This document shows, piece after piece, positions 4,142 to 64,000 of a stretch of 64,000 nt of DNA. Position 1 is the stretch's first letter; each line of letters starts with the position of its first letter. The stretch spans positions 248,001 to 312,000 of the forward strand of contig NZ_JAIWZC010000001.1 of NCBI RefSeq assembly GCF_020297485.1, in the 5' to 3' direction. Below the pieces are notes generated by a model. It was not told the origin of the DNA, made no database searches, and saw only the letters and a program-made list of their open reading frames with translations. This DNA is from Enterocloster clostridioformis (GTDB lineage Bacteria; Bacillota; Clostridia; Lachnospirales; Lachnospiraceae). The translations under genes were made by a program, and so were the position numbers.

Positions 4142-4257
4142 AAGAACAAGCCAATGGCGACGATCCGGCAGCGAAACCAGTGAGGCCGGAAACAGAGATA
4201 CATATTGAATCGGCCTCGAAAAATGATTATAATAAAAAGAAAGAGGGAGGAGTGGAA

Positions 4258-5085
4258 TTGTTGAATAATCAAGATTTATTGTTGGCTATATCCGGTATGA
4301 TGGATGATAAGCTGGAGAAAAAACTGGAACAGAAACTGATACAGTCAGAGCAGAGGCTGGAGATAAAGCTAAAACTGGCGATGGAGCAAACGCTGGAAGA
4401 AAAGTTAGAGGAAAAGCTGGAACAAAAGCTGGATAGGAAACTGGATGAAAAGCTGGAGGAAAAGCTGGAGGAAAAGCTGGAGGAAAAGCTGGAGGAAAAG
4501 CTGGAGGAAAAGCTGGAGGAAAAGCTGGAGGAAAAGCTGGAGGAAAAGCTGGATAGGAAACTGGATGAAAAGCTGGAGGAAAAGCTGGATAGGAAACTGG
4601 ATGAAAAGCTGGAGGAAAAGCTGGAACAGAAACTGGAGGAAAAGCTGGAGCAGAAGCTGGAACAGAAACTGGAGGAAAAGCTGGAACAGAAGCTGGAACA
4701 GAAACTGGATGAAAAACTGGAACAGAAGCTGGACGAAAAACTGGAACAAAAGCTGGATGAAAAACTGGAGCGGAAGCTGGATGAAAAACTGGCTCCAATC
4801 CGTGCTGACATCACCATCCTGAAGGAACAGGTCCTCTCGCTGACAGACAGGATGGGCCGTGTAGAGGCGGACATCGAAGATATCAGGAAGCAGCAGGAAC
4901 GGACATCCAAAATCATTGAAAACCAGCTGATACCCAATATCCAGCTTCTGGCTGAGAACTATGTACCTGCCGCCAGGCGGTATCAGGAGTCAGAGCAGAA
5001 GCAAACTGCCATGGAGAACGATATCAAGCTCCTTAAAATCGTGGTGGCGGACCACAGCGCAAAGCTCTGTGAATTGGCAAAATGA
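4258..5085 (+). CDS. Low-complexity (LxxK) tetrad-repeat protein with coiled-coil C-terminus
   Basis: About 275 residues. A TTG start at 4258 (or 4261) is chosen because GGAGGAG ends 7 bases upstream; the frame stays open further upstream but without a ribosome site. The N-terminus carries NNQDLLLAISGMMDDKLEKK. Residues about 46-177 are 33 uninterrupted four-residue units of the form L-(E/D)-(E/Q/R)-K. The C-terminal third is normal sequence with heptad-like helices (LTDRMGRVEADIEDIRKQ) and IPNIQLLAENYVPAARRY, a segment that recurs in uncharacterised clostridial proteins as far as I recall. No signal peptide or membrane segment. Function unknown; a rod-like spacer or scaffold is plausible. 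Confidence 0.75.
   Translation: MLNNQDLLLAISGMMDDKLEKKLEQKLIQSEQRLEIKLKLAMEQTLEEKLEEKLEQKLDRKLDEKLEEKLEEKLEEKLEEKLEEKLEEKLEEKLEEKLDRKLDEKLEEKLDRKLDEKLEEKLEQKLEEKLEQKLEQKLEEKLEQKLEQKLDEKLEQKLDEKLEQKLDEKLERKLDEKLAPIRADITILKEQVLSLTDRMGRVEADIEDIRKQQERTSKIIENQLIPNIQLLAENYVPAARRYQESEQKQTAMENDIKLLKIVVADHSAKLCELAK
4393..4788 (+). repeat. In-frame tandem 12-bp repeat, 33 units
   Basis: The unit is CTGGAGGAAAAG and near variants (CTGGATGAAAAG, CTGGAACAGAAG, CTGGATAGGAAA). Eight consecutive units at 4453-4548 are identical, which points to recent slippage or unequal exchange. All units keep frame, so expansion or contraction changes protein length in four-residue steps. Long open frames on the other strand and frames are by-products of this repeat. 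Confidence 0.95.
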
Positions 5086-8777: not shown

Positions 8778-8864
8778 AATTCAGTACTCCTTATGCAAAT
8801 TTATAAATATACAGATTGTATGGACCATAGTATGTATTCTTCAGAATGATTCATATGCAGTAAT

Positions 8865-8893
8865 AGTGTAAGCGACTCTGTCTGAAATGTCAA
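8865..8893 (-). promoter_or_regulatory. Promoter of the aroF-tyrA-aroA operon
   Basis: Minus strand TTGACA (8888-8893), a 17-base spacer, TACACT (8865-8870). Transcription would start near 8858, leaving a leader of about 80 bases with no T-box or obvious attenuator. Confidence 0.8.
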
Positions 8894-9137
8894 TACTTTA
8901 TTACTTTAAACTTTTACACTTTTAAGCGAAGATGAAAAATACGACAACGTATTATCATCACATTTGAAATATGAGAATCCTTTGTGCCCTGTTATTCAGC
9001 AATCAGGTTCCGCAAATTGGTATAAAGATGTATGTTGTAAAGGGTGAATATGAGATTTCACCTAATACAACATAGCGGCTTGCTCGTTTGTGGTGAATGA
9101 GAGCGCTATGGGAGGGGTGATAGCAATAACACACAGC
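8894..9137. other. Left edge of the accessory island, non-coding
   Basis: No gene is seen. A long imperfect hairpin at 9031-9074 pairs TATGTTGTA...GGGTGAA with TTCACCT...TACAACATA. The sequence style changes after this point to one typical of clostridial mobile elements, so the island boundary is probably near here. The exact junction cannot be fixed from the sequence alone. Confidence 0.4.
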
Positions 9138-9517
9138 TTCGAGCGTCAGCCTGACGCTCGAACCCGCTTGACGTGAGGTGCATTTTGCACTTCACGTTAC
9201 TGCGGCGGTTCAAAGGCGCAAAATGCGCCTTTGAAAATCAGAAATGCAAAATGCACTTCTGATTTTGGCAACATCGTGGAAAAAATGTCCGCCACGTTGT
9301 ACCAGGGACCAAGTTTGCATTTTGCAATCTTGATCTTCCTGGGAGGTGGCGGCGAAATGTGCCGCTACCTCCTTCTGCTGGTGCCGAACATTTTGACCGC
9401 CACCAATCAGAACGAAAATTTTTCGTCCTGGTTCTGGTCAGCGGCACAATGACGCAGGCCAAAGACGCAAACGGACAATTTGTCAACAACGTGGCCGACA
9501 AAATGTCGGTCACGTTG
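9138..9517. repeat. Array of about ten small hairpins with shared 12+3+12 geometry
   Basis: Successive inverted repeats have about 12-base arms and mostly 3-base loops of AAA or TTT with an inner CA...TG. The clearest are 9138-9162 (arms TTCGAGCGTCAG, 1-base loop), 9171-9197 (ACGTGAGGTGCA), 9209-9235 (TTCAAAGGCGCA, perfect), 9237-9263 (ATCAGAAATGCA), 9308-9334 (ACCAAGTTTGCA), 9379-9405 (TGGTGCCGAACA), 9406-9432 (ATCAGAACGAAA), 9435-9461 and 9487-9517 (CAACGTGGCCGACA, one G-T wobble-type mismatch). Arm sequences differ between hairpins but remain self-complementary. No convincing gene overlaps; frames crossing the region change reading style at each palindrome. Confidence 0.85.
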
Positions 9518-9895
9518 GTAACTATCCAATCTTGCATTTTTGCAATTTTTTCGAGGGTGACGGTCAAATCTTGCATTATCGCCATATTTTTGCGGTCATG
9601 GCCAACTTGACCGTATAATAGAGATGGGCGAACAAACTGGGCCGCTCCAAGAAATTTTCAAATTCTTTTTGAAAATGGTTCCGCTTTGCCCCCGGTTTTT
9701 CTCCTATTAGTGAGGGGATGCTTTGGGTGCTGTGAAAACCATCGTCCTTTCACGACAAAAGTACATAGGCACAATCAAGCCAGTTTTCGACTGCAAACGA
9801 CATTATGCAGCCGGAGGCTGGTTTTCTGCTGCCTGGACAAGTCCACCAACATCATATCACGGGTTGCGGCCTACCGCAAGAAAGGAAGGCAAAAT
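9518..9895 (+). other. Non-coding stretch between hairpin array and tnpW-like fragment
   Basis: The first part continues with weaker inverted repeats: TTGCATTTTTGCAA near 9533, and an outer pair ACGGTCAA / TTGACCGT at about 9560-9616. From about 9640 the sequence is a probable leader ending in GAAAGGAAGG at 9880-9889, a ribosome site placed for the small gene that follows. No complete gene is seen. Confidence 0.4.
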
Positions 9896-10045
9896 ATAGC
9901 TACAATTCAACCAGCAGCGGAGAACACCGCCATTCTCTACCGGCGTATCGGGTCTACCACCTACAAGGTGCGTGTCCATTTCAGCGATACCGCCCAGGAA
10001 ACCATGAACGACAAAATTCTGCATTTAATCAAAAAGAGGGTTTAA
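9896..10045 (+). pseudogene. TnpW-like small transposon protein, start codon apparently lost
   Basis: The frame encodes RRIGSTTYKVRVHFSDTA followed by ETMNDKILHLIKKRV and a stop, matching the core of small TnpW-type proteins that accompany TnpX-family recombinases. A ribosome site GAAAGGAAGG ends 6 bases before an ATA codon at 9896-9898, exactly where ATG is expected, so the start looks mutated (ATG to ATA) and the reading would otherwise be 49 residues. It may be silent or use a poor start. It lies just left of the IS200/IS605 insertion. Confidence 0.55.
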
Positions 10046-10109: not shown

Positions 10110-11866
10110 TAGGTAATTGCGAAACAAGTAGGAAATCTTGATTCCAACAAGACAAAAATCTGGCATAGCCGGATTTTCGGGAGGTGTGTGTAAAAAACAG
10201 GATTTTCGGGTGCGAAAATAAAACAGATACGGGTATCTGACAGTAAAGGAATATGAACCACGGATACTTATGCGATCAAAGGTTTCAAGCTGCGGATATA
10301 TTGATGTTTATGGATTTTATCCGCAACCATTACGGTAATCAGCTGGGCAATTCCGGCAAGGAGCAAATCCGCATGGAGTGTTTTCTCATTCTGTGTTTTA
10401 CGCCCGGCAACACAAAAGCTGTCCTTAAAGTGGTTAATGGATTTTTCTACATTCACCCGGATTTTATATGTGGAGTCCCATTCTGATGTGCCGCGGATAG
10501 TCCCTGGATAAGCACGGAGGTTCTGTTCCGGATAGATGTAGATCATTCTTCCGCAGGAAGATGCTGTACACGGGTTGTCACAATGGCATACGCGTTTGGT
10601 TTTCTTTGTAATGTTGTCTCGTTCCCATTTCATTTTGGGACAGACAAATTTCATGGTTGGAAGACCACAGCGCAAATGAGATTTACTTCCTTCCCGTTTC
10701 ATTGGGAGTGAAGCATCATGCGGGCAACAGGGAATGCCATCAGCATTTACGGTGTAATCGACTCCTTCGATTTTGAGTTTGTTTTTCAGGGGAATATACG
10801 CTTTTTCAAAGGATGTTTCCTGCAGTAGGTATTTATAAATCTCGATGGAATCGAAAGCGGCATCCCCCAGAAACGTTTTGGGGTTGATAAGCGGATGTTT
10901 CCGGAAGAAATCCTTCAGAGTCGGGATTAGCGCTTTGGAATCTGCAAGGCTTTTGTCCTCATCCGGAGAGTCAGATTTCTTTTCCACGATGATCTCAGGA
11001 TGGGATACGAGAAAATCTTTGTTGTAAAAGGAAATATGTCTGACGATACCCAGCCCGTTTGTAACGATGCCGAATTTAAAGGCATAACAGAAATGCCCGT
11101 TAATGTACATCTGCTGAATCGCAGGATTAGCGGCAGCATGAGGCGGCATGGAACCATAGGCGGCTTTATAAGGGTCAAAGGAATCATCCAGCCCGTTCGC
11201 TTTTTTTAAAGATTTTAGCTGTTTGATGATACGGTTGGCGTATTTGGGATTATTTTCTGTTACCCATGCTTCAATACCGGAGGTATCAAAGAGAAGCATA
11301 GATGCTTTTTCCTTATCAATCCGTTGGCATATCGGTTCGGTCAGGTCAACCAGCCTGTCAAACATCGATTGTAAGTCCAATAAGAAATCCTGTTTGAAGC
11401 GTGTGAATTTAGACGCGTCAGGAACAACATCAAAGCCACAGAAATCCCGTAATTCCTGAGAGTATTTCAAAAATACAATCAGGAGGGAAGTAGTAGGAAT
11501 CGAGAAAATAAGCTGTAATAACAGAGCCTTGAGCATTGGATAAAGAAGGTGCTTTCTAGGTCTGCCGGTGGCGGCGTGGAAATGGGAAACAAAAGACGTC
11601 GGGACAATTTCATCGAGGTTGATGGTTTCATCAAGCAAAGAAAGGAACTCATATTTATCGTTATCAAATTTATTTTGGCAATCGGTAAAAATATCTGCCA
11701 AAGAAAGCTGTTTGTATGTTATCATATAGGTACAACTCCTTTCTTGGTGGATTGGTAGATAGTTTCTGGACAATTCTATTTTACCATAAACCAGTGAGGA
11801 GTTGTTTTATTTTGTAAGAAAAAGAATCCCGTATTTATATGGGTTCTGGCGTTTCGCAAACGCCTA
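10110..11866 (-). mobile_element. DDE insertion sequence inserted in the IS200/IS605 leader, with 11-bp target duplication
   Basis: 1757 bases. Imperfect terminal inverted repeats: left TAGGTAATTGCGAAAC (10110-10125) and right GTTTCGCAAACGCCTA (11851-11866). The 11-base sequence TACTAGAGGAA flanks both sides (10099-10109 and 11867-11877), marking the insertion point. It carries one transposase gene on the minus strand. Removing it and one repeat restores the leader of the Y1 transposase gene. Confidence 0.85.
10268..11725 (-). CDS. DDE transposase (IS1182-like/IS4-type)
   Basis: About 485 residues. The start at 11725 is chosen because AAAGGAG precedes it; a TTG frame start lies 48 bases upstream. 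Order: an N-terminal DUF772-type region (HAATGRPRKHLLYPMLKALL, about residues 50-70), a DDE core with LLFDTSGIEAW near 146 and TFLGDAAFDS near 290, a Cys-rich insert (CCPHDAS, CHCDNPCTASSCGR), and a C-terminal SINHFKDSF where the final Glu/Asn region lies. It appears complete, with no frameshift. It fits the insertion sequence bounded by terminal repeats and an 11-bp duplication. Confidence 0.85.
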   Translation of the reverse strand: MITYKQLSLADIFTDCQNKFDNDKYEFLSLLDETINLDEIVPTSFVSHFHAATGRPRKHLLYPMLKALLLQLIFSIPTTSLLIVFLKYSQELRDFCGFDVVPDASKFTRFKQDFLLDLQSMFDRLVDLTEPICQRIDKEKASMLLFDTSGIEAWVTENNPKYANRIIKQLKSLKKANGLDDSFDPYKAAYGSMPPHAAANPAIQQMYINGHFCYAFKFGIVTNGLGIVRHISFYNKDFLVSHPEIIVEKKSDSPDEDKSLADSKALIPTLKDFFRKHPLINPKTFLGDAAFDSIEIYKYLLQETSFEKAYIPLKNKLKIEGVDYTVNADGIPCCPHDASLPMKREGSKSHLRCGLPTMKFVCPKMKWERDNITKKTKRVCHCDNPCTASSCGRMIYIYPEQNLRAYPGTIRGTSEWDSTYKIRVNVEKSINHFKDSFCVAGRKTQNEKTLHADLLLAGIAQLITVMVADKIHKHQYIRSLKPLIA

Positions 11867-11899
11867 TACTAGAGGAAAAAGGAAAGGAGAAATTGTGTG

Positions 11900-12370
11900 A
11901 TGAGTGAAACAATACGCAAGTCACACAATGTATCAGTACTCATGTATCATTTCGTATGTCCAGCAAAATATAGAAGAGTAGTAATAGATGAAGATGTAGA
12001 TAGGGTAATCAAAGAAACGTGTGAGGGAATTCAGGAAAGGTATGAAATAAGATTTTTGGAAGTAGGTACAGATAAAGACCATATACATTTTCTTATCCAG
12101 TCAGTGCCTGCATATAGTCCAAAAAAAATCATCCAAATAGTGAAGAGCATCATAGCCCGGGAGGTGTTCGCGAAATGTCCACAAGTGAAGAAAAAATTGT
12201 GGGGAGGAGAATTCTGGACAGATGGCTATTACGTAGCAACGGTGAGTGAACATGGGAATGAGCAAATCATAAGTAGATATGTGAAAGAACAGGGACAGGA
12301 AAAAAATTATAAAACAATCTATAAAAACGTAGAGAAAACAAAGCAGTATAGCATATGGGATTATATGTAG
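11900..12370 (+). CDS. tnpA: IS200/IS605 family Y1 (HUH) transposase TnpA
   Basis: 156 residues. The HUH metal motif is HIHFLIQ within GTDKDHIHFLIQ (about residue 58), and the catalytic Tyr is expected in SRYVKEQ near residue 133. GEFWTDGYYVATVSEHG is the typical core. The enzyme excises and inserts single-stranded DNA and pairs with the two subterminal hairpins described above. ATG at 11900 is used; GTG at 11897 is equally placed relative to AAAGGAG. Its leader is cut by another insertion sequence, which may alter its expression. No tnpB partner follows. Confidence 0.88.
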   Translation: MSETIRKSHNVSVLMYHFVCPAKYRRVVIDEDVDRVIKETCEGIQERYEIRFLEVGTDKDHIHFLIQSVPAYSPKKIIQIVKSIIAREVFAKCPQVKKKLWGGEFWTDGYYVATVSEHGNEQIISRYVKEQGQEKNYKTIYKNVEKTKQYSIWDYM

Positions 12371-12489: not shown

Positions 12490-14298
<1,809 letters not shown>

Positions 14299-14690: not shown

Positions 14691-15947
14691 TCAGGCCATA
14701 GCAGGAGGAGTAATCATATAGCCTCGTTTCTCTAAACGTTTGATGGCATTTCTGTCATACTGTTCCTGAAATTTCCGGTACATTTCTTCAGGAATAGCGG
14801 AATAATCCGTATCGGCAGGATTAAATACCTCCTGCTTTTGGAACATGTGGTAAATGCAAGTCAACACCATGCGTGCAATGGCAATGATTGCCCGTTTATG
14901 ACCACGACGTTTTTTTATACGGTCATATTTGTATCTGAAGTAAGGGTTTTTACTCTTGATGGCAGCATTTGCACACTGAACCAGCAGAGGCTTTAAGTAC
15001 ACCCCGGCTCTTGAAACATGGACGCTCTTCTTTTTACCGGCACTTTCGTTATTTTCAGGAGCCAGCCCAGCCCAGGAGCACAAACGTTTTGAGGATTTGA
15101 ATACCGCCATATCCACCCCGATTTCAGCAATGATAAAGGTGGCAGACTGCTCTGTAATTCCAGGAATTGTAGTAGCCAATTCGATAAATTTATGGTAAGG
15201 TTTAGCCAGGTCGGAAATCGTTTCTTCGAGAGTGGAGACGCACTCATTGATTTCATCGAAATGCTTTCTGCAGACCTTAATCTTAACGGATTGGTCACGG
15301 CGCAGTTCATAACCGATTATGGAGGTTACAACATCATCTGCCTTGTCCTTTGCTTTTTTAAGAAGCAGGGATTTACAGTATTCGGGGTCAAATACCTCAC
15401 AGGTCAGGATATAGTCAACGATGGCGGTCGCTGATTTTCCAAAGGTATCTGAGAGGACGGATGCAAGGGCAATGTTGGAAACCGTAAGAGCATTCTGTAA
15501 CCGGTTTTTCTCACTGCTGCGGTGGCCAATCAGTTTCTGCCGGTATCGGAACAATTCCCGAAGCATGCGAATTTCCTTACAGGGGATATAACTGGAAGGA
15601 ACAATATCAAATTTAAACAGATCCGCAATCCAGGCGGAGTCTTTGTCATCGGTTTTCTGTCCTTTGATAGCCCTGACATACTTGGGGTTAGCAACGACAA
15701 CGTGACAGGAATCCTCCAGGATATTAAAAATTGGAATCCAGTATTTACCAGTGGATTCGAGGCAGATCTCAGTGCAATTGAAAGAAAGAAGCCATTTTTT
15801 CAAAGAATTAAGATCGGAATTGAAGGTGGCGAACCGCTTTTTAACATAAGAAGTAACGCCCCTGTAGTCTGTCAGAGCAATGGTAGCGACAACAAATTTC
15901 TTGTGAACGTCCATGCCACAGCAGACAAAGTGTTTGATAGATAACAT
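14691..15947 (-). CDS. IS110 family transposase (DEDD/RuvC-like plus transposase_20 domain)
   Basis: 418 residues. The N-terminal DEDD domain carries GMDVHKKFVVATIAL (first Asp about residue 13), EICLESTGKYW (Glu near 63) and KTDDKDSAWIADLF (Asp pair near 100). The C-terminal transposase_20 domain has TTIPGITEQSATFIIAEIG and the conserved SWAGLAPENNESAGKK, whose Ser is the proposed recombination nucleophile in this family. Coiled helices separate the domains. The frame is intact, so the element could be active if its guide RNA is functional. Confidence 0.93.
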   Translation of the reverse strand: MLSIKHFVCCGMDVHKKFVVATIALTDYRGVTSYVKKRFATFNSDLNSLKKWLLSFNCTEICLESTGKYWIPIFNILEDSCHVVVANPKYVRAIKGQKTDDKDSAWIADLFKFDIVPSSYIPCKEIRMLRELFRYRQKLIGHRSSEKNRLQNALTVSNIALASVLSDTFGKSATAIVDYILTCEVFDPEYCKSLLLKKAKDKADDVVTSIIGYELRRDQSVKIKVCRKHFDEINECVSTLEETISDLAKPYHKFIELATTIPGITEQSATFIIAEIGVDMAVFKSSKRLCSWAGLAPENNESAGKKKSVHVSRAGVYLKPLLVQCANAAIKSKNPYFRYKYDRIKKRRGHKRAIIAIARMVLTCIYHMFQKQEVFNPADTDYSAIPEEMYRKFQEQYDRNAIKRLEKRGYMITPPAMA

Positions 15948-16258: not shown

Positions 16259-16468
16259 ATGAATATCAGGAACGAAATCAAAGCCTATATTGTCCGGGAG
16301 GGCTTCACCATGAGCGAGTTAGTGGAAAAGCTAACGGAGCAATACGGATGGAGTCCCAGCGTCCCGAACCTCTCCGACAAGCTGCGCCGTGAATCCTTGC
16401 GCTATAAGGAAGCGGTCGAGCTGGCTGACGCTCTCGGCTATGACCTCGTATGGCAGAAGCGGAGATAA
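16259..16468 (+). CDS. Small conserved mobile-element protein, helix-turn-helix-like
   Basis: 69 residues. ATG at 16259 follows AAAGGAATGAGAG; a second ATG at 16247 is possible. The sequence MNIRNEIKAYIVREGFTMSE, then LVEKLTEQYGWS and NLSDKLRRESLRYKEAVELAD, resembles Cro/XRE-like helical DNA-binding proteins that often precede mobC in clostridial mobilizable elements. Relatives are sometimes mislabelled as oxidoreductases. It lies 8 bases before mobC and probably shares its transcript. Confidence 0.65.
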   Translation: MNIRNEIKAYIVREGFTMSELVEKLTEQYGWSPSVPNLSDKLRRESLRYKEAVELADALGYDLVWQKRR

Positions 16469-16476
16469 GGGGGATT

Positions 16477-16812
16477 ATGGCAAAAGAGAAGACCAGCGGT
16501 ATCTATTTCAAAGTTACAGACGAGGAACGGAGCTTAATCGAACAGAGGATGGCGTTGATGGGCGTTCACAATATGAGCGCCTATATTCGGAAGCTGTGTA
16601 TTGACGGCTACATTGTCCAACTGCAAATCAAAGAGCTGGACGAGTGCACAAAGCTCCTGCGGTACACGTCCAACAATGTGAACCAGATCGCCCGCCGGGT
16701 CAACTCCGGCGGCGGTGTCTATCCTGACGAGGTGGACGAAATCTGCGGCAAGCTGACAGAGGTCAGCGGCCTGTTCGGCAGCATATTGGAGCAGTTATCG
16801 AAAATCAAATAG
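16477..16812 (+). CDS. mobC: MobC-type relaxosome accessory protein
   Basis: 111 residues from ATG 16477, which follows AAGGGGG. Plasmid mobilization MobC family: YFKVTDEERSLIEQRMALMG, then MSAYIRKLCIDGYI (ribbon-helix-helix-like DNA-binding part) and LLRYTSNNVNQIARRVNSGG (conserved family core). It helps the relaxase recognise or melt the transfer origin. The transfer origin is probably near; no confident oriT was identified. The relaxase gene follows 64 bases downstream. Confidence 0.88.
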   Translation: MAKEKTSGIYFKVTDEERSLIEQRMALMGVHNMSAYIRKLCIDGYIVQLQIKELDECTKLLRYTSNNVNQIARRVNSGGGVYPDEVDEICGKLTEVSGLFGSILEQLSKIK

Positions 16813-16876: not shown

Positions 16877-18280
16877 ATGGCAACAACACGATTGATGCCG
16901 CTGCACAGCGGCATGGGCCGAACCGTGGCCGAGGCCCTGGGCCGGGTGACGGCCTATGTAGAGAATCCAGAGAAAACCAACGGCGGCGATTTGGTCACGG
17001 CCTACCAGTGTAACCCGTCTATTGCTGACCAGGAGTTTTTATTTTCCAAACGGCAGTATGCTGCCATTACCGGCAGGGAACGGAAGGACAATGATGTGAT
17101 CGCCTACCACATGCGGCAGTCCTTCAAGCCGGGGGAGATCACACCGGAACTGGCAAACAAGATCGGCTATGATCTCGCTATGTCGCTGACCAAGGGGAAA
17201 CACGCTTTCATCGTCTGCACCCACGTTGACAAACACCACATTCATTCTCATATCGTGTTCAACTCGACTGCCATAGACTGCACTCGAAAATTCCGAAACT
17301 TCTGGCGGTCCTCATTTGCAATTCGTAAAATCTCCGATATGCTGTGCCTGGAAAATGGTCTGTCGGTGATCTCGGAGCCGAAGCCCAGCCGGGGCAGCTA
17401 CGGCACATGGTTAGGTGAGGATAAAGCGCCTACCATTAGGGGACAGTTGGAGGTCCTGATTGACACCGCCCTCGGTCAAGGCTGCAAGGATTTTGACAGC
17501 TTCCTCGCCGCCATGAAAGCGGCGGGCGTGGAGGTAAAACAGGGCAAACACCTTGCGTTCAAAATTTCCAATGGCAAGAGGTTTCTCCGCTGTGATTCCC
17601 TCGGCGTGGATTACTCTGAAACGGCGATTATGGAGCGCATTTCCGGCAAACGGATTGTCACTCCAAGGGCAAAGGCGGCGGTGAAGTCCAAGCCTAATTT
17701 GCTGATTGATATTCAATCGAAAATGCAGCAGGCCAACTCTCCCGGATTCGAGCGGTGGGCGAAAATTTTCAATCTCAAAGAGATGGCAAAAACGGTCATG
17801 TACTTGCAAGAAAACAATCTGACCGACCTTGGAGAATTGGAGAAAGCCTGTGATGCGGCGGTTCAGAATTTCAACGATTTAGCTGACCGGACGAAAGCCG
17901 CCAGCGCAAGAATGAAGGACATCTCCGAACTGCAAAAGCACATCGGCGCTTACGGTAAGACATGGGAGATTTACGCACAGTATCGGAAATTGACGGGCAG
18001 GAAAAGGGAGAAATTTTACGAACAGCATAGCAGTGAAATCACGGCCTGTCAAGCGGCCAAACAATACTTTGATTCCCTCGGTTTGAAGAAACTGCCGCCC
18101 ATGCAATCGCTAAAACAGGAGTATGCCATGTTGAAGGTGGAGAACAAAAAGCGGTATCCAGAGTACAAGCAGGCACGAGAAAAAATGTTAGAACTGCTCA
18201 CTGCCAAAAACAATGTGGAGCGAATTTTAGGTGTGACAGAAACGGAGAAAAATCGTGACCGCCAGCAGGGGGCAAGATAA
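16877..18280 (+). CDS. Relaxase/mobilization nuclease
   Basis: 467 residues. Relaxase domain: RVTAYVENPEKT near residue 23, a conserved Tyr/His region around AYHMRQSFKPGEITPE (about 76-92), and the metal-binding HUH motif in HVDKHHIHSHIVFNS (about 118-132). The C-terminal half is helical and charged, with no primase or helicase motifs. It nicks the transfer origin and leads the DNA strand through a helper conjugation pore. The start follows GGGAGGTTTAGAAA. It is the last gene of the mobilization cluster; an IS1182-type transposase gene begins 126 bases after its stop. Confidence 0.9.
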   Translation: MATTRLMPLHSGMGRTVAEALGRVTAYVENPEKTNGGDLVTAYQCNPSIADQEFLFSKRQYAAITGRERKDNDVIAYHMRQSFKPGEITPELANKIGYDLAMSLTKGKHAFIVCTHVDKHHIHSHIVFNSTAIDCTRKFRNFWRSSFAIRKISDMLCLENGLSVISEPKPSRGSYGTWLGEDKAPTIRGQLEVLIDTALGQGCKDFDSFLAAMKAAGVEVKQGKHLAFKISNGKRFLRCDSLGVDYSETAIMERISGKRIVTPRAKAAVKSKPNLLIDIQSKMQQANSPGFERWAKIFNLKEMAKTVMYLQENNLTDLGELEKACDAAVQNFNDLADRTKAASARMKDISELQKHIGAYGKTWEIYAQYRKLTGRKREKFYEQHSSEITACQAAKQYFDSLGLKKLPPMQSLKQEYAMLKVENKKRYPEYKQAREKMLELLTAKNNVERILGVTETEKNRDRQQGAR

Positions 18281-18329
18281 TGATTTCCCCGCTTCCGGCA
18301 GGTAACGGCAGACGCCGAAGGCGGCTTAA

Positions 18330-18357
18330 AAGGACCGGCGCATTTACGCCGGTCCTT
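18330..18357 (+). terminator. Hairpin after the relaxase gene
   Basis: Perfect 11-bp stem AAGGACCGGCG with CGCCGGTCCTT, 6-base loop CATTTA. There is no T-run, so it may be a factor-dependent terminator or a processing or transfer-related hairpin. Confidence 0.45.
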
Positions 18358-18405
18358 ACGGGGGCTTGGGGGCGTCAGCCACCAACAAGATATAATTTAT
18401 CTGTC

Positions 18406-19980
18406 ATGAAAAACAATACCATGTCTTATTATAGTCCAAAGCAGGGAAGATTTCCAGTATTTCTTGCAGATAGTCTGGATATCTGCGATCCGGTATTGGT
18501 ATTTGACCAGATCATGGAGGAGATCGGAATAGAACAGTATCTCAGGCCTGAACCATTATACCGCTATGGCAGGCCGAGATATAATCGGGTCAACATGCTT
18601 AAAACAATCTTATTCGGCTTTATGGACACGGGATACGCAAGTTTAAGGGAATTGGAGGACCGGTGCAGAACCAATATCCGTTACATGTACCTGATGGATT
18701 ACGAAACACCCGGTTACCGCTCCTTCGGACACTTTATAAATGATGAAATCAACGGAAAGGCTGAAGATATTTTCCGTGCCGTTATGGAGTATATCCGAAA
18801 AAAAGACGCCGTGGATCTGGAACATCTCTATATAGACGGCTCAAAATTTGAGGCAAATGCGAATAAATACAGCTGGGTATGGAAAAAAGCAACGGAAAAA
18901 TCCAGATACCGGCTGTTTGCAAAGATCACACAGCTGTTGGGTCAGATCAATGAGGATCTGGCCTATACCGGGCTGAAGGTTGAGACGAACACGGAATATA
19001 CTCCGCAAGGTCTGGAGATGATTCTTGGACGATACGCTTTTCAGTGCCGGATCGACGAAAAAGCGTTTGTCCACGGCAGGGGACACCGAAAGACCAGGGA
19101 GCAGAGATATTACGAGAAGCTGAAAGAATACACACAAAAGCTGAAAGAATATGTGAAAAAGATCCGGATCTGCGGTCCAGAACGCAACAGCTATTCCAAA
19201 ACGGACCATGATGCCACGTTTATGAGGATGAAAAAGGACTACATGGGAAACGACCAGCTGCTCCCGGCATATAACATTCAGATCGGGGTGGCGGATGAAT
19301 ATATAGCGGTCATCGACGTGAAGCAGTACCGCTCGGATATGGACTGCTTTGTGCCGTTGATGGAGAAATTTAGGGAACTGTATGGGTTTTACCCGAAATA
19401 TCCGGTAGCAGATGCGGGATACGGCTCGTACAACAATTATATTTATTGTCAGGAACACGGGATGGAAAAGTACATGAAATTTCCGATGTACAAAAAAGAG
19501 ACAAAAGATAAAGAATATCATGAGAACCCGTTTCGTGCGGTGAACTTTAAGCCGGGCCCGGATGGGACCCTGATGTGCCCATGGGGAAAGAAGTTCCATT
19601 TTGCATACAGGAAAGCAGTAAAAGGGAACCGATATGGACGCCAGGAAGAGTACTATACATGTGAGGACTGTGGAGGATGTCCTTATAAGGAACAATGTAA
19701 AAAGACAGATAAGAACCGTATGGTGTGTATGAACCGGGAGCTGAGCTGTATGCACCAGGAAGTAGTCGAAAACCTGGAAAGTATCCAGGGAGCGCTGCTG
19801 CGGATGAACCGTTCGATACAAGCGGAAGGGACGTTTGGAATCATAAAGTATGACCGATGGTACAAACGTGTGGTAAGAAGAAAGCTAAACCGAGTGAGTC
19901 TGGAAATATATTTGGTATCAATAGGCCATAATCTCTATAAATTCAGGAATAAAAAGAAAAGGGCTGCTGTTGCGGCATAA
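18406..19980 (+). CDS. IS1182-family transposase
   Basis: About 524 residues from ATG 18406 (a second ATG is at 18421); the open frame upstream overlaps the relaxase end and is not used. Motifs: RYGRPRYNRVNMLKTILFGF (DUF772 region, about residues 47-66), LYIDGSKFEANANKYSW (first catalytic Asp, about 145), PVADAGYGSYNNYIY (second Asp near 335), a Cys-rich segment CEDCGGCPYKEQC (about 430) and SIQAEGTFGIIKYDRW with the catalytic Glu (about 480). The frame is intact. I could not define terminal inverted repeats, so the element's limits are not given. It differs in sequence from the other DDE transposase at 10.3-11.7 kb. Confidence 0.88.
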   Translation: MKNNTMSYYSPKQGRFPVFLADSLDICDPVLVFDQIMEEIGIEQYLRPEPLYRYGRPRYNRVNMLKTILFGFMDTGYASLRELEDRCRTNIRYMYLMDYETPGYRSFGHFINDEINGKAEDIFRAVMEYIRKKDAVDLEHLYIDGSKFEANANKYSWVWKKATEKSRYRLFAKITQLLGQINEDLAYTGLKVETNTEYTPQGLEMILGRYAFQCRIDEKAFVHGRGHRKTREQRYYEKLKEYTQKLKEYVKKIRICGPERNSYSKTDHDATFMRMKKDYMGNDQLLPAYNIQIGVADEYIAVIDVKQYRSDMDCFVPLMEKFRELYGFYPKYPVADAGYGSYNNYIYCQEHGMEKYMKFPMYKKETKDKEYHENPFRAVNFKPGPDGTLMCPWGKKFHFAYRKAVKGNRYGRQEEYYTCEDCGGCPYKEQCKKTDKNRMVCMNRELSCMHQEVVENLESIQGALLRMNRSIQAEGTFGIIKYDRWYKRVVRRKLNRVSLEIYLVSIGHNLYKFRNKKKRAAVAA

Positions 19981-48039: not shown

Positions 48040-48318
48040 AGTGCAAATACGCAGATAGGGAAGAGTAGACAACCGGATGGATGCAGAGAGCCGGCGGCTG
48101 GTGAGAGCCGGTGACGGATGGTTGTTGAACTGGCCCTGGAGTAGCCTGCCCCAACGAGGAAGGACCACCGGAAACGGGGACCGGGAGCCAGTAGGACAGG
48201 ACGGAGACCTTACCGTTATAAGAGGATTAAGCGCATGCGTCAGACAGCATGAACCAGAGTGGTACCGCGCGGGGATTTTCAGCCTTGCGTCTCTAGCAGT
48301 AGAGGCGCAGGGCTTTTA
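48040..48318 (+). promoter_or_regulatory. T-box riboswitch, leucine specific, leader of leuS
   Basis: AG-type loop GCAGAGAGCCGG near 48080, specifier loop TTGAACTGGCCCTGG with CTG at 48130-48132, T-box AGTGGTACCGCG at 48258-48269, and a terminator (stem 48282-48295 with 48300-48313, then TTTT). Uncharged tRNA-Leu with a CAG anticodon would favour leuS transcription. Confidence 0.93.
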
Positions 48319-63040: not shown

Positions 63041-64000
63041 CCCAGCATGGGCGTTTTCTAATGGGTGAAAGTCCCAAGTGCGCGTAGGCAACAACGAAGC
63101 ACATAGCCGAACAGCAAGGGTGTCCGCCGTGAGACGGAATCTGAAAGAAGCTGTAAGCAAACCTCTGACCTGACGGACAGGAACCGCATATAAGGCTCGG
63201 AAATACGGATAAGGTGGCAAAAGGCACTGAAGTCCAAAAGGTTGCCGGAAGTACGAGTAAATGCGGCAGGTACATGGAGGAAAAGAACACGCACCTTAAC
63301 TGGGGAGGTCTCACAGGCGGTCTCATTAGCCGTAGTAACAACGAATTGTGAGAAGTCAGCAGAAGCCATAGTAGTGAGGAAGTTCCTGTAATGGGGACGG
63401 AGCGAAGGGCTGAACAATCAATCAGTTGAAGTACGTTCCACTTCGTAGCCGGAGCATACGCCTGTCGATGACTTCAAAGGCGGCAAAGGCAAAAGGGGCA
63501 GAAAGGAAACAACGCATGGACACAAGCAGTCTCATGGAGCAGATATTAAGCAGGGATAATCTAAATGCGGCGTATCTGCAAGTCGTAAGGAATAAAGGAG
63601 CGGCAGGCGTGGACGGGATGACCGTTGAAGAACTTGGCGCATATCTTTCGGAAAACGGCGAAAACATTAAGGAACAGTTGCGGACGAGGAAGTATAAGCC
63701 GAAGCCAGTCCGCAGGGTGGAGATACCCAAACCCGATGGTGGTACAAGAAATCTTGGAGTGCCAACAGCAGTAGACCGCTTTGTACAGCAGGCGGTGGCA
63801 CAGGTGCTTACCCCGATATTTGAGGAGCAGTTTCACGACCACAGCTATGGATTCAGACCCAAGCGGTGTGCACAGCAGGCAGTCCTTAAAGCATTGGAAA
63901 TGATGAATGACGGACACAACTGGATAGTGGATATCGACCTAGCGAAATTCTTTGACACAGTAGACCATGACAAGCTGATGACGATTTTCGGACGGACAAT
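63041..64000 (+). mobile_element. Group II intron with maturase gene, right part beyond the window
   Basis: From about 63041 a structured RNA begins: hairpin GCCCA-GCA-TGGGC, then GGGTGAAAGTCCC, a GAAGCACATAGCCGAACAGC stretch and AGGAACCGCATATAAGGC-type domain I elements, all typical of bacterial group II introns. The intron-encoded reverse transcriptase starts at 63516. The exact 5' splice site was not fixed; it lies just after the nifJ terminator, the preferred location of group IIC introns, though the class is not proven. Confidence 0.8.
63516..64000 (+). CDS. ltrA: Group II intron reverse transcriptase/maturase, N-terminal part
   Basis: The first 161 codons are present and open to the window edge. 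Starts MDTSSLMEQILSRDNLNAAY after GAAAGGAAACAACGC. Reverse-transcriptase blocks: NKGAAGVDGMTVEEL (RT0), YKPKPVRRVEIPKPDGGTRN (RT1), GVPTAVDRFVQQAVAQVL (RT2), HDHSYGFRPKRCAQQAV and WIVDIDLAKFFDTVDHDKL (RT3, first catalytic Asp). The YADD block and maturase domain are outside. The protein helps splicing and reverse-splices the intron into DNA. Confidence 0.93.
   Translation, partial: MDTSSLMEQILSRDNLNAAYLQVVRNKGAAGVDGMTVEELGAYLSENGENIKEQLRTRKYKPKPVRRVEIPKPDGGTRNLGVPTAVDRFVQQAVAQVLTPIFEEQFHDHSYGFRPKRCAQQAVLKALEMMNDGHNWIVDIDLAKFFDTVDHDKLMTIFGRT

Follow-up and report, generated by a model that had tools for sequence, protein, structure and literature searches.

What is a row of short palindromes for when its members share one geometry and differ in sequence? 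Such a row lies in Enterocloster clostridioformis, within a stretch of 64,000 nucleotides (contig NZ_JAIWZC010000001.1, positions 248,001 to 312,000) that was analyzed at its full length and is referred to here as the window; all coordinates are positions in it. The first-pass annotation had described at least nine consecutive inverted repeats of one geometry, with an AAA or TTT loop, an inner CA..TG, and a spacing of 27 to 36 bases. The array is larger than that. We counted 11 palindromic units across 9137-9515, each with an odd center (9150, 9184, 9222, 9250, 9284, 9321, 9357, 9392, 9419, 9448, and 9502). Between 8 and 12 of the 12 arm positions pair in each unit (111/132 overall), which gives all 11 the form of a palindromic double-stranded DNA site such as a ParB-type parS. 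Centers pairing at 9 or more of 12 positions number 10 within a 491-bp stretch, whereas 300 dinucleotide shuffles averaged 0.33 such centers and never exceeded 3. Some details of the earlier description need adjusting: the central triplet is AAA or TTT in 7/11 units but GCC, AAT, ATT, or CAA in the other four, and one unit (9342-9372) has a 7-nt loop; the inner CA..TG is kept in 8/11 units and lost in 3; and the center-to-center distance, although close to the range proposed, is 27-38 with a single gap of 54. Two abutting units had been reported correctly (units 8 and 9; units 3 and 4 are separated by one base), and the array is indeed not a CRISPR, since it has no constant repeat and the direct-repeat families in 8800-9900 reach only 2 to 3 copies. 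Candidate centers at 9477, 9542, and 9571 were dropped, with pairing at just 5 to 6 of 12 positions.

The array lies close to the left end of its host element, which we would place at ∼9022, where the sequence common to orthologues starts. The features of this element are as follows.

9031..9074, no strand: inverted repeat close to the left end of the element, with arms of 18 nt; a similar repeat occurs in locus L009
9649..9718, + strand: oriT-like element (..GGTTTTTCTCCTATTAGTGAGGGG..), with a putative transfer-origin function
9689..10045, + strand: TnpW-like protein (PF14202)
12502..14298, + strand: large serine recombinase of the element (PF00239, PF07508, PF13408, PF14287)
16450..16812, + strand: MobC/NikA-like mobilization protein (PF21983, PF05713)
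16877..18280, + strand: relaxase (PF03432)

The order is thus array, oriT-like DNA, tnpW, large serine recombinase, MobC/NikA-like gene, and relaxase, which agrees with the initial assignment of the array to a mobilizable element with transfer-origin-like DNA adjoining. In another locus (L005), the oriT-like element is located directly upstream of a frame that resembles MobC by eye. Transposase genes of the IS1182, IS200, and IS110 types lie within or beside the element (10268-11773, 11897-12370, and 14691-15947), and a further frame (18280-19980) looks like a transposase by eye. Elsewhere in the window, Rfam identified two ordinary T-box leaders (1292-1532 on the minus strand and 48043-48297 on the plus strand) and group II intron pieces (63123-63410), and a frame at 4180-5085 is rich in EEKLEEKL/DRKLDEKL repeats, coiled-coil-like by eye.

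A scan with a two-hairpin pattern yielded 85 stretches in species genomes and 6 viral contigs. Ten related arrays were found, composed of the window type (L027, L092, L083, L094, and L054) and of others (L029, L036, and L066 on the one hand, L065 and L087 on the other); the remaining stretches of the 85 comprise pairs of sites and isolated palindromes, in part within ORF6N- or ParB-like genes, or were left unclassified, and loci with 4 to 5 hairpins (L046, L076, L030, L049, and L096) are excluded from the array count. A comparison of homologous elements upstream of tnpW-like genes had been suggested in the first-pass annotation, and L027, L083, and L054 indeed keep the order array, oriT-like DNA, tnpW-like frame, recombinase, where the recombinase of L027 was assigned by Pfam and the other calls in these loci by eye. 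The array of L087 is flanked by a MobA/MobL relaxase gene and a TnpW gene. That of L029 has a relaxase-like frame (of the L087 type, by eye) on one side and, on the other, a small gene with a serine recombinase after it. The array of L065 lies ahead of an actin-like (ALP_N) gene, beyond which comes a MobA/MobL relaxase. Orthologous arrays differ by the presence or absence of whole units, and identity among the five window-type arrays is 85.5% in unit columns, 78.6% in spacers, and 86.3% in the stretch 9520-9720. In the left flanks of L083, L092, and L094, the element is apparently inserted in related coding sequences, with ..ASRLYK or similar at the junction; we take the interrupted gene to resemble a helicase/methylase gene of conjugative elements. 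Site pairs of the same class, a fixed 38 bp apart, occur upstream of an HTH-regulator-like gene in L003 (1509-1571), L025 (2707-2769), and ∼30 similar loci, which presumably resemble Tn1549-like elements; a ParB search in 35 site-pair loci gave no clear match (one at E 0.006).

The array is rare. Its hairpin pattern was found in 2/145 genomes of relatives, and a class-wide DNA and pattern search returned 1/391 genomes, the window's own. A family search gave 7/397 genomes with mostly short matches, including one close array (L110, 90% identity), while a single unit pattern occurred in 3/397 genomes of the family. BLAST of 9100-9720 against plasmid and phage collections gave no match, and a search of the own genome with 8960-9900 retrieved just the region itself and two oriT-like pieces, with no dispersed copies. 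Judged by titles and abstracts, no description of such arrays or of ParB sites in the linker of a gene was found in the open literature.

Searches of viral contigs with single units (returning 2 and 4 stretches) led to stretches that all lie within ParB-like genes, except for L124. To avoid the bias of unit searches, we retrieved ParB-like genes with peptides that lie outside the linker (EIDEN[FV][VI] and IAG[LF]HRLE), obtaining 25 loci, of which 22 carry a palindrome, two a weak one (L148 and L151), and one (L130) yielded no call. The palindrome occupies the linker codons just before the helix-turn-helix, in frame and with one unit per gene. A first parse found it in 18/18 loci reached (L138 and L139 among them have identical linkers), and no more than 9 of 200 synonymous-codon shuffles paired as well; among the 7 loci that this parse missed, it is present in L134, L147, L143, and L146, the last two called without shuffles. 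Chromosomal-type ParB genes served as a control and gave 0/4, or 0/16 with a looser parse (of 30 loci), a crude comparison in which several parses were off target. The linkers form a small repertoire among the homologues listed (120 of 3,168 scored hits), and two proteins (P0096 and P0079) that share 96% of the 75 N-terminal residues compared differ in both linker type and helix residues. A class-wide protein search for the ParB-like protein at E ≤ 1e-20 found none in 391 genomes. Upstream of the ParB-like gene in L021, L022, L044, and L123, ∼450 bp from the in-gene site, there is a palindrome with ∼25-bp arms (ccggatgaaagacctg... or similar). In-frame palindromes were also seen in ORF6N-type genes, where they code for KSQ[FI]AT (L101 290-600, L106 1203-1295, L114 1212-1531, and L076 2763-3212; ORF6N identity by Pfam for L101 only). 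L101 and L106 have two or three of them in tandem, and L114 and L076 have similar ones in upstream intergenic DNA as well; these genes may be a second DNA-binding family whose members contain their own site.

The sequence of the in-gene palindrome follows the helix encoded next to it. We wrote the helix segment as G-x-x-x-A-x-V-B, with A and B denoting the compared residues, and numbered the half-site such that base -5 is five positions before the central triplet. In 24 genes, residue B and base -5 pair as R-G (11/11), E-C (10/10), Q-C (2/2), and A-T (1/1), and residue A and base -3 pair as R-A in 13/16, with G (5) or T (3) at non-R residues; 0/20000 permutations did as well in either case. 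For this table we read the half-sites by eye and assigned L199 the helix of L122, a close relative. Omitted are L148 (weak), L191 (no clear palindrome), L206 (4-nt center), and L122 (L199 type), as well as L130, L198, L200, L201, L202, L204, L205, L207, and L208 (linker unreached or no frame parsed), while the weak L150 and L151 were retained. A second set of 79 loci was drawn, with other peptides, from another group of these proteins; 66 distinct genes were parsed, of which 41 have a good palindrome. Here the pairs are R-G 9/9, Q-C 9/9, E-C 15/16, A-T 2/3, S-T 1/1, N-G 1/1, and K-G 1/2, where 4 of the 41 genes repeat genes of the first table, near-identical genes (e.g., L277/L278 and L210/L211) are counted separately, and, as judged by eye, a poor palindrome (L287) and misplaced helices (L234 and L246) are among the exceptions. 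One fixed parse of 101 loci gave 43 distinct genes, 38 of which have at least 10/12 pairs, and 38/38 of these fit R/K/N-G, E/Q-C, and A-T, a residue grouping chosen after data inspection.

The same correspondence appears on a tree of the N-terminal domain, drawn quickly and without support values, where residue-class changes and base changes, 12 of each, map to an identical set of 12 out of 75 branches. Given that base -5 tracks the helix residue both in the genes and on the tree, the palindromes behave like cognate ParB sites within the gene. In the AlphaFold2 model of the L121 protein (mean pLDDT 70), helices 142-150 and 154-166 form a helix-turn-helix pattern with residues A and B (R155 and R158) on the second helix, whereas the linker (115-137) is disordered (pLDDT <50). 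Linker and helix, being neighbors, could also change together if they were exchanged as one piece. However, joint exchange would leave a single residue-base rule across Clostridia and alphaproteobacterial phages unexplained, while recognition would predict such a rule. For the in-gene sites, sequence specificity follows the recognition helix, as expected of a ParB-type parS site; array units are connected to this property by similarity only.

That similarity was measured against a panel of 16 in-gene sites, from genes also retrieved by protein peptides. For each unit of the window, none of which has an assigned strand, the list below gives the arms around the central triplet and the best in-gene ParB site, as identity over 27 nt and as the number of 1,000 pairing-preserving shuffles scoring as well.

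9137..9163: unit 1, cttcgagcgtca GCC tgacgctcgaac; half-sites CGTCA/CGTCA; 13/27, 154/1000
9171..9197: unit 2, acgtgaggtgca TTT tgcacttcacgt; half-sites GTGCA/GTGCA; 19/27 to L134, 11/1000; predicted partner with Arg at helix position B
9209..9235: unit 3, ttcaaaggcgca AAA tgcgcctttgaa; half-sites GCGCA/GCGCA; 12/12 pairs; 21/27 to L022, 1/1000
9237..9263: unit 4, atcagaaatgca AAA tgcacttctgat; half-sites ATGCA/GTGCA; 25/27 to L021, 0/1000
9271..9297: unit 5, acatcgtggaaa AAA tgtccgccacgt; half-sites GGAAA/GGACA; 8/12 pairs; 25/27 to L138, 0/1000
9308..9334: unit 6, accaagtttgca TTT tgcaatcttgat; half-sites TTGCA/TTGCA; 24/27 to L141, 0/1000; predicted partner with Ala at position B
9344..9370: unit 7, aggtggcggcga AAT gtgccgctacct; 7-nt loop form at 9342-9372; 20/27 to L145, 3/1000
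9379..9405: unit 8, tggtgccgaaca TTT tgaccgccacca; 24/27 to L113, 0/1000
9406..9432: unit 9, atcagaacgaaa ATT tttcgtcctggt; half-sites CGAAA/CGAAA; 24/27 to L123, 0/1000; predicted partner with Glu or Gln at position B
9435..9461: unit 10, tggtcagcggca CAA tgacgcaggcca; 18/27 to L131, 9/1000
9489..9515: unit 11, acgtggccgaca AAA tgtcggtcacgt; half-sites CGACA/CGACA; 24/27 to L120, 0/1000

Ten of the 11 units resemble an in-gene site at a level reached by ∼1% or less of the shuffles, the best at 25/27, and unit 1 is the only one in the window with no significant match. In the nine other arrays, 45/56 units reach that level, and 11/56 fall short of 1%. One array and one gene come from the same organism: in Oscillibacter sp. 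1-3, a unit of array L029 (NZ_KE159707.1) is 26/27 identical to the in-gene site of the ParB-like gene L044 on another contig (NZ_KE159713.1). Base -5 of the window units falls into G, C, and T classes, with one unit mixed (A/G), so that a single protein should not read all of them. In the own genome, one ParB-like query found three distant matches only (best E 3.9e-7), none within the window, suggesting that no partner is present now. The host is accordingly an integrative, mobilizable element in which we found no ParB gene, like the carrier in SGI1-like parS hijacking.

Based on these sequence comparisons, the array is probably a set of about eleven palindromes that act as protein-binding sites in double-stranded DNA, with several specificities among them, and it is predicted to dock foreign ParB-like proteins. 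A ParB-like family (ParB_N plus helix-turn-helix) has sites of this kind inside its own coding sequence, in the linker codons ahead of the helix-turn-helix. In the mechanism that we propose, a dimer would read two half-sites, so that the arms of a unit match, and units of different sequence would suit different recognition helices. The host element, for which our search returned no such ParB, may have collected sites for the ParB-like proteins of mobile elements that it met, and most likely uses the array beside the oriT-like DNA to dock the ParB-like proteins of whichever foreign element co-occupies the cell. We infer physical binding, and from it a docking role and a benefit, which might be self-stabilization or distribution of the element, possibly with interference with the helper, or else help in excision or transfer.

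ParB-like proteins may also bind these sites for another purpose, either integration, excision, or transfer (as an accessory of a recombinase or relaxosome) or as decoys that titrate a rival's ParB. Serine recombinases adjoin ParB-like genes in L138, L133, L044, and L019, and in L203 and L206, which are palindrome-bearing relatives, a transposase gene follows the ParB-like gene, so that another role is possible. The arrays themselves adjoin tnpW/recombinase genes or oriT-like DNA, and a Pfam scan of 12 neighboring proteins (2 plus 10) found no ParA, so that any role in partition is putative. Nothing decisive speaks against such a role; the parS mimics of SGI1 are described as giving both stabilization and helper displacement (PMC10954446). 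We regard it as possible rather than likely.

Mobile palindromic units could have spread into ParB linkers and piled up between genes without any binding role. Rickettsia palindromic elements and REP elements are likewise short palindromes, some of them in frame within genes. Gain and loss of whole units between orthologous arrays, single in-frame units within genes, and the similar in-frame palindromes of ORF6N genes would all suit this explanation. However, the palindromes of the peptide-fetched ParB group occupy a constant place in the gene that nearly all members share, the unit sequence follows the adjoining DNA-binding helix, and the search with the array region found no dispersed copies in the host genome, in all of which these palindromes differ from Rickettsia palindromic and REP elements. 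We therefore consider a purely mobile origin unlikely.

Selection on folding was the reading of the first-pass annotation, which had taken the covariation of the arms as its sign. The array would then work as structured RNA, or as hairpins of single-stranded DNA in the region near oriT (such as a single-strand origin or an Frpo-like promoter). The region 9100-9650 does fold very stably (z-score -11.8 as RNA), and it adjoins oriT-like DNA, but the opposite strand folded as DNA scores -11.0, and any row of palindromes would give such energies on both strands. Mismatches on the array strand are G.T in 25 cases, A.C in 19, and other in 47 (55 distinct units), and in the window-type arrays alone, G.T 16 versus A.C 12; this small lean singles out no strand, as expected for double-stranded sites. 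A comparison of the window array with four orthologues gave 69 pair cells with a single-sided change and 12 in which both sides had changed, which does not uphold the argument from covariation, and the structured-RNA role likewise loses ground, given the slight strand preference and an Rfam scan of the whole window with four matches, none near the array. Moreover, like units inside protein-coding genes have bases that track a DNA-recognition helix, which dyad symmetry for a protein dimer explains and folding does not. Folding of the array is thus not favored, and we consider it improbable, a caution that arm complementarity in DNA need not imply RNA structure. For an IS200/IS605 or recombinase substrate array, another role raised in the first-pass annotation, these comparisons yielded no support. 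Operators of a local repressor are the least credible alternative, since the two related sites upstream of the HTH-regulator-like gene in L003 and similar loci would fit them, but one repressor is expected to use one operator sequence and the array shows G, C, and T at -5.

Docking of foreign ParB-like proteins could be part of a wider arrangement resembling a key ring, in which the ParB-like genes of mobile elements hold the cognate site beside the recognition helix, with reader and site in one cassette, and mobilizable elements gather such sites near oriT to dock the ParB of many helpers; we see the chances of this generalization as evenly balanced. If it is true, the rule R/K/N-G, E/Q-C, and A/S-T at -5 would predict partners from sequence, a hairpin row would be a readable list of the ParB-like proteins that an element is built to meet, and which helpers a mobilizable element exploits would become testable from sequence. 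It would also provide a protein-DNA recognition rule from nature in which a single gene encodes the reader and contains the site, and this in-gene site with its rule may be a more general discovery than the array.

Among known systems, SGI1 is the closest parallel, as it is also an integrative mobilizable element with imitations of the ParB sites of another element: its two parS mimics are reported to bind the helper's ParB, stabilizing SGI1 and destabilizing the helper, in a hijacking of the parABS system of IncC plasmids (PMC10954446). Unlike SGI1, for which that report describes two copies mimicking the parS of one plasmid family, our array has about eleven units of several predicted specificities beside oriT-like DNA, whose binding we infer. 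A ParB site inside a ParB gene has a precedent in parS-359 of Bacillus subtilis, which lies within parB (PMC4442127), although the in-gene site described here is fixed just before the helix-turn-helix and varies in sequence with the helix. That few interface residues govern specificity is reported for ParB and Noc (PMC7383237). In staphylococci, nonconjugative plasmids carry oriT mimics, with several subtypes across plasmids (PMC8136818), so that a passenger imitates the recognition site of its helper there as well, but those mimics serve as oriT for transfer and are not ParB-type palindromes. We rate the array as what appears to be a new variation on the known hijacking of parS.
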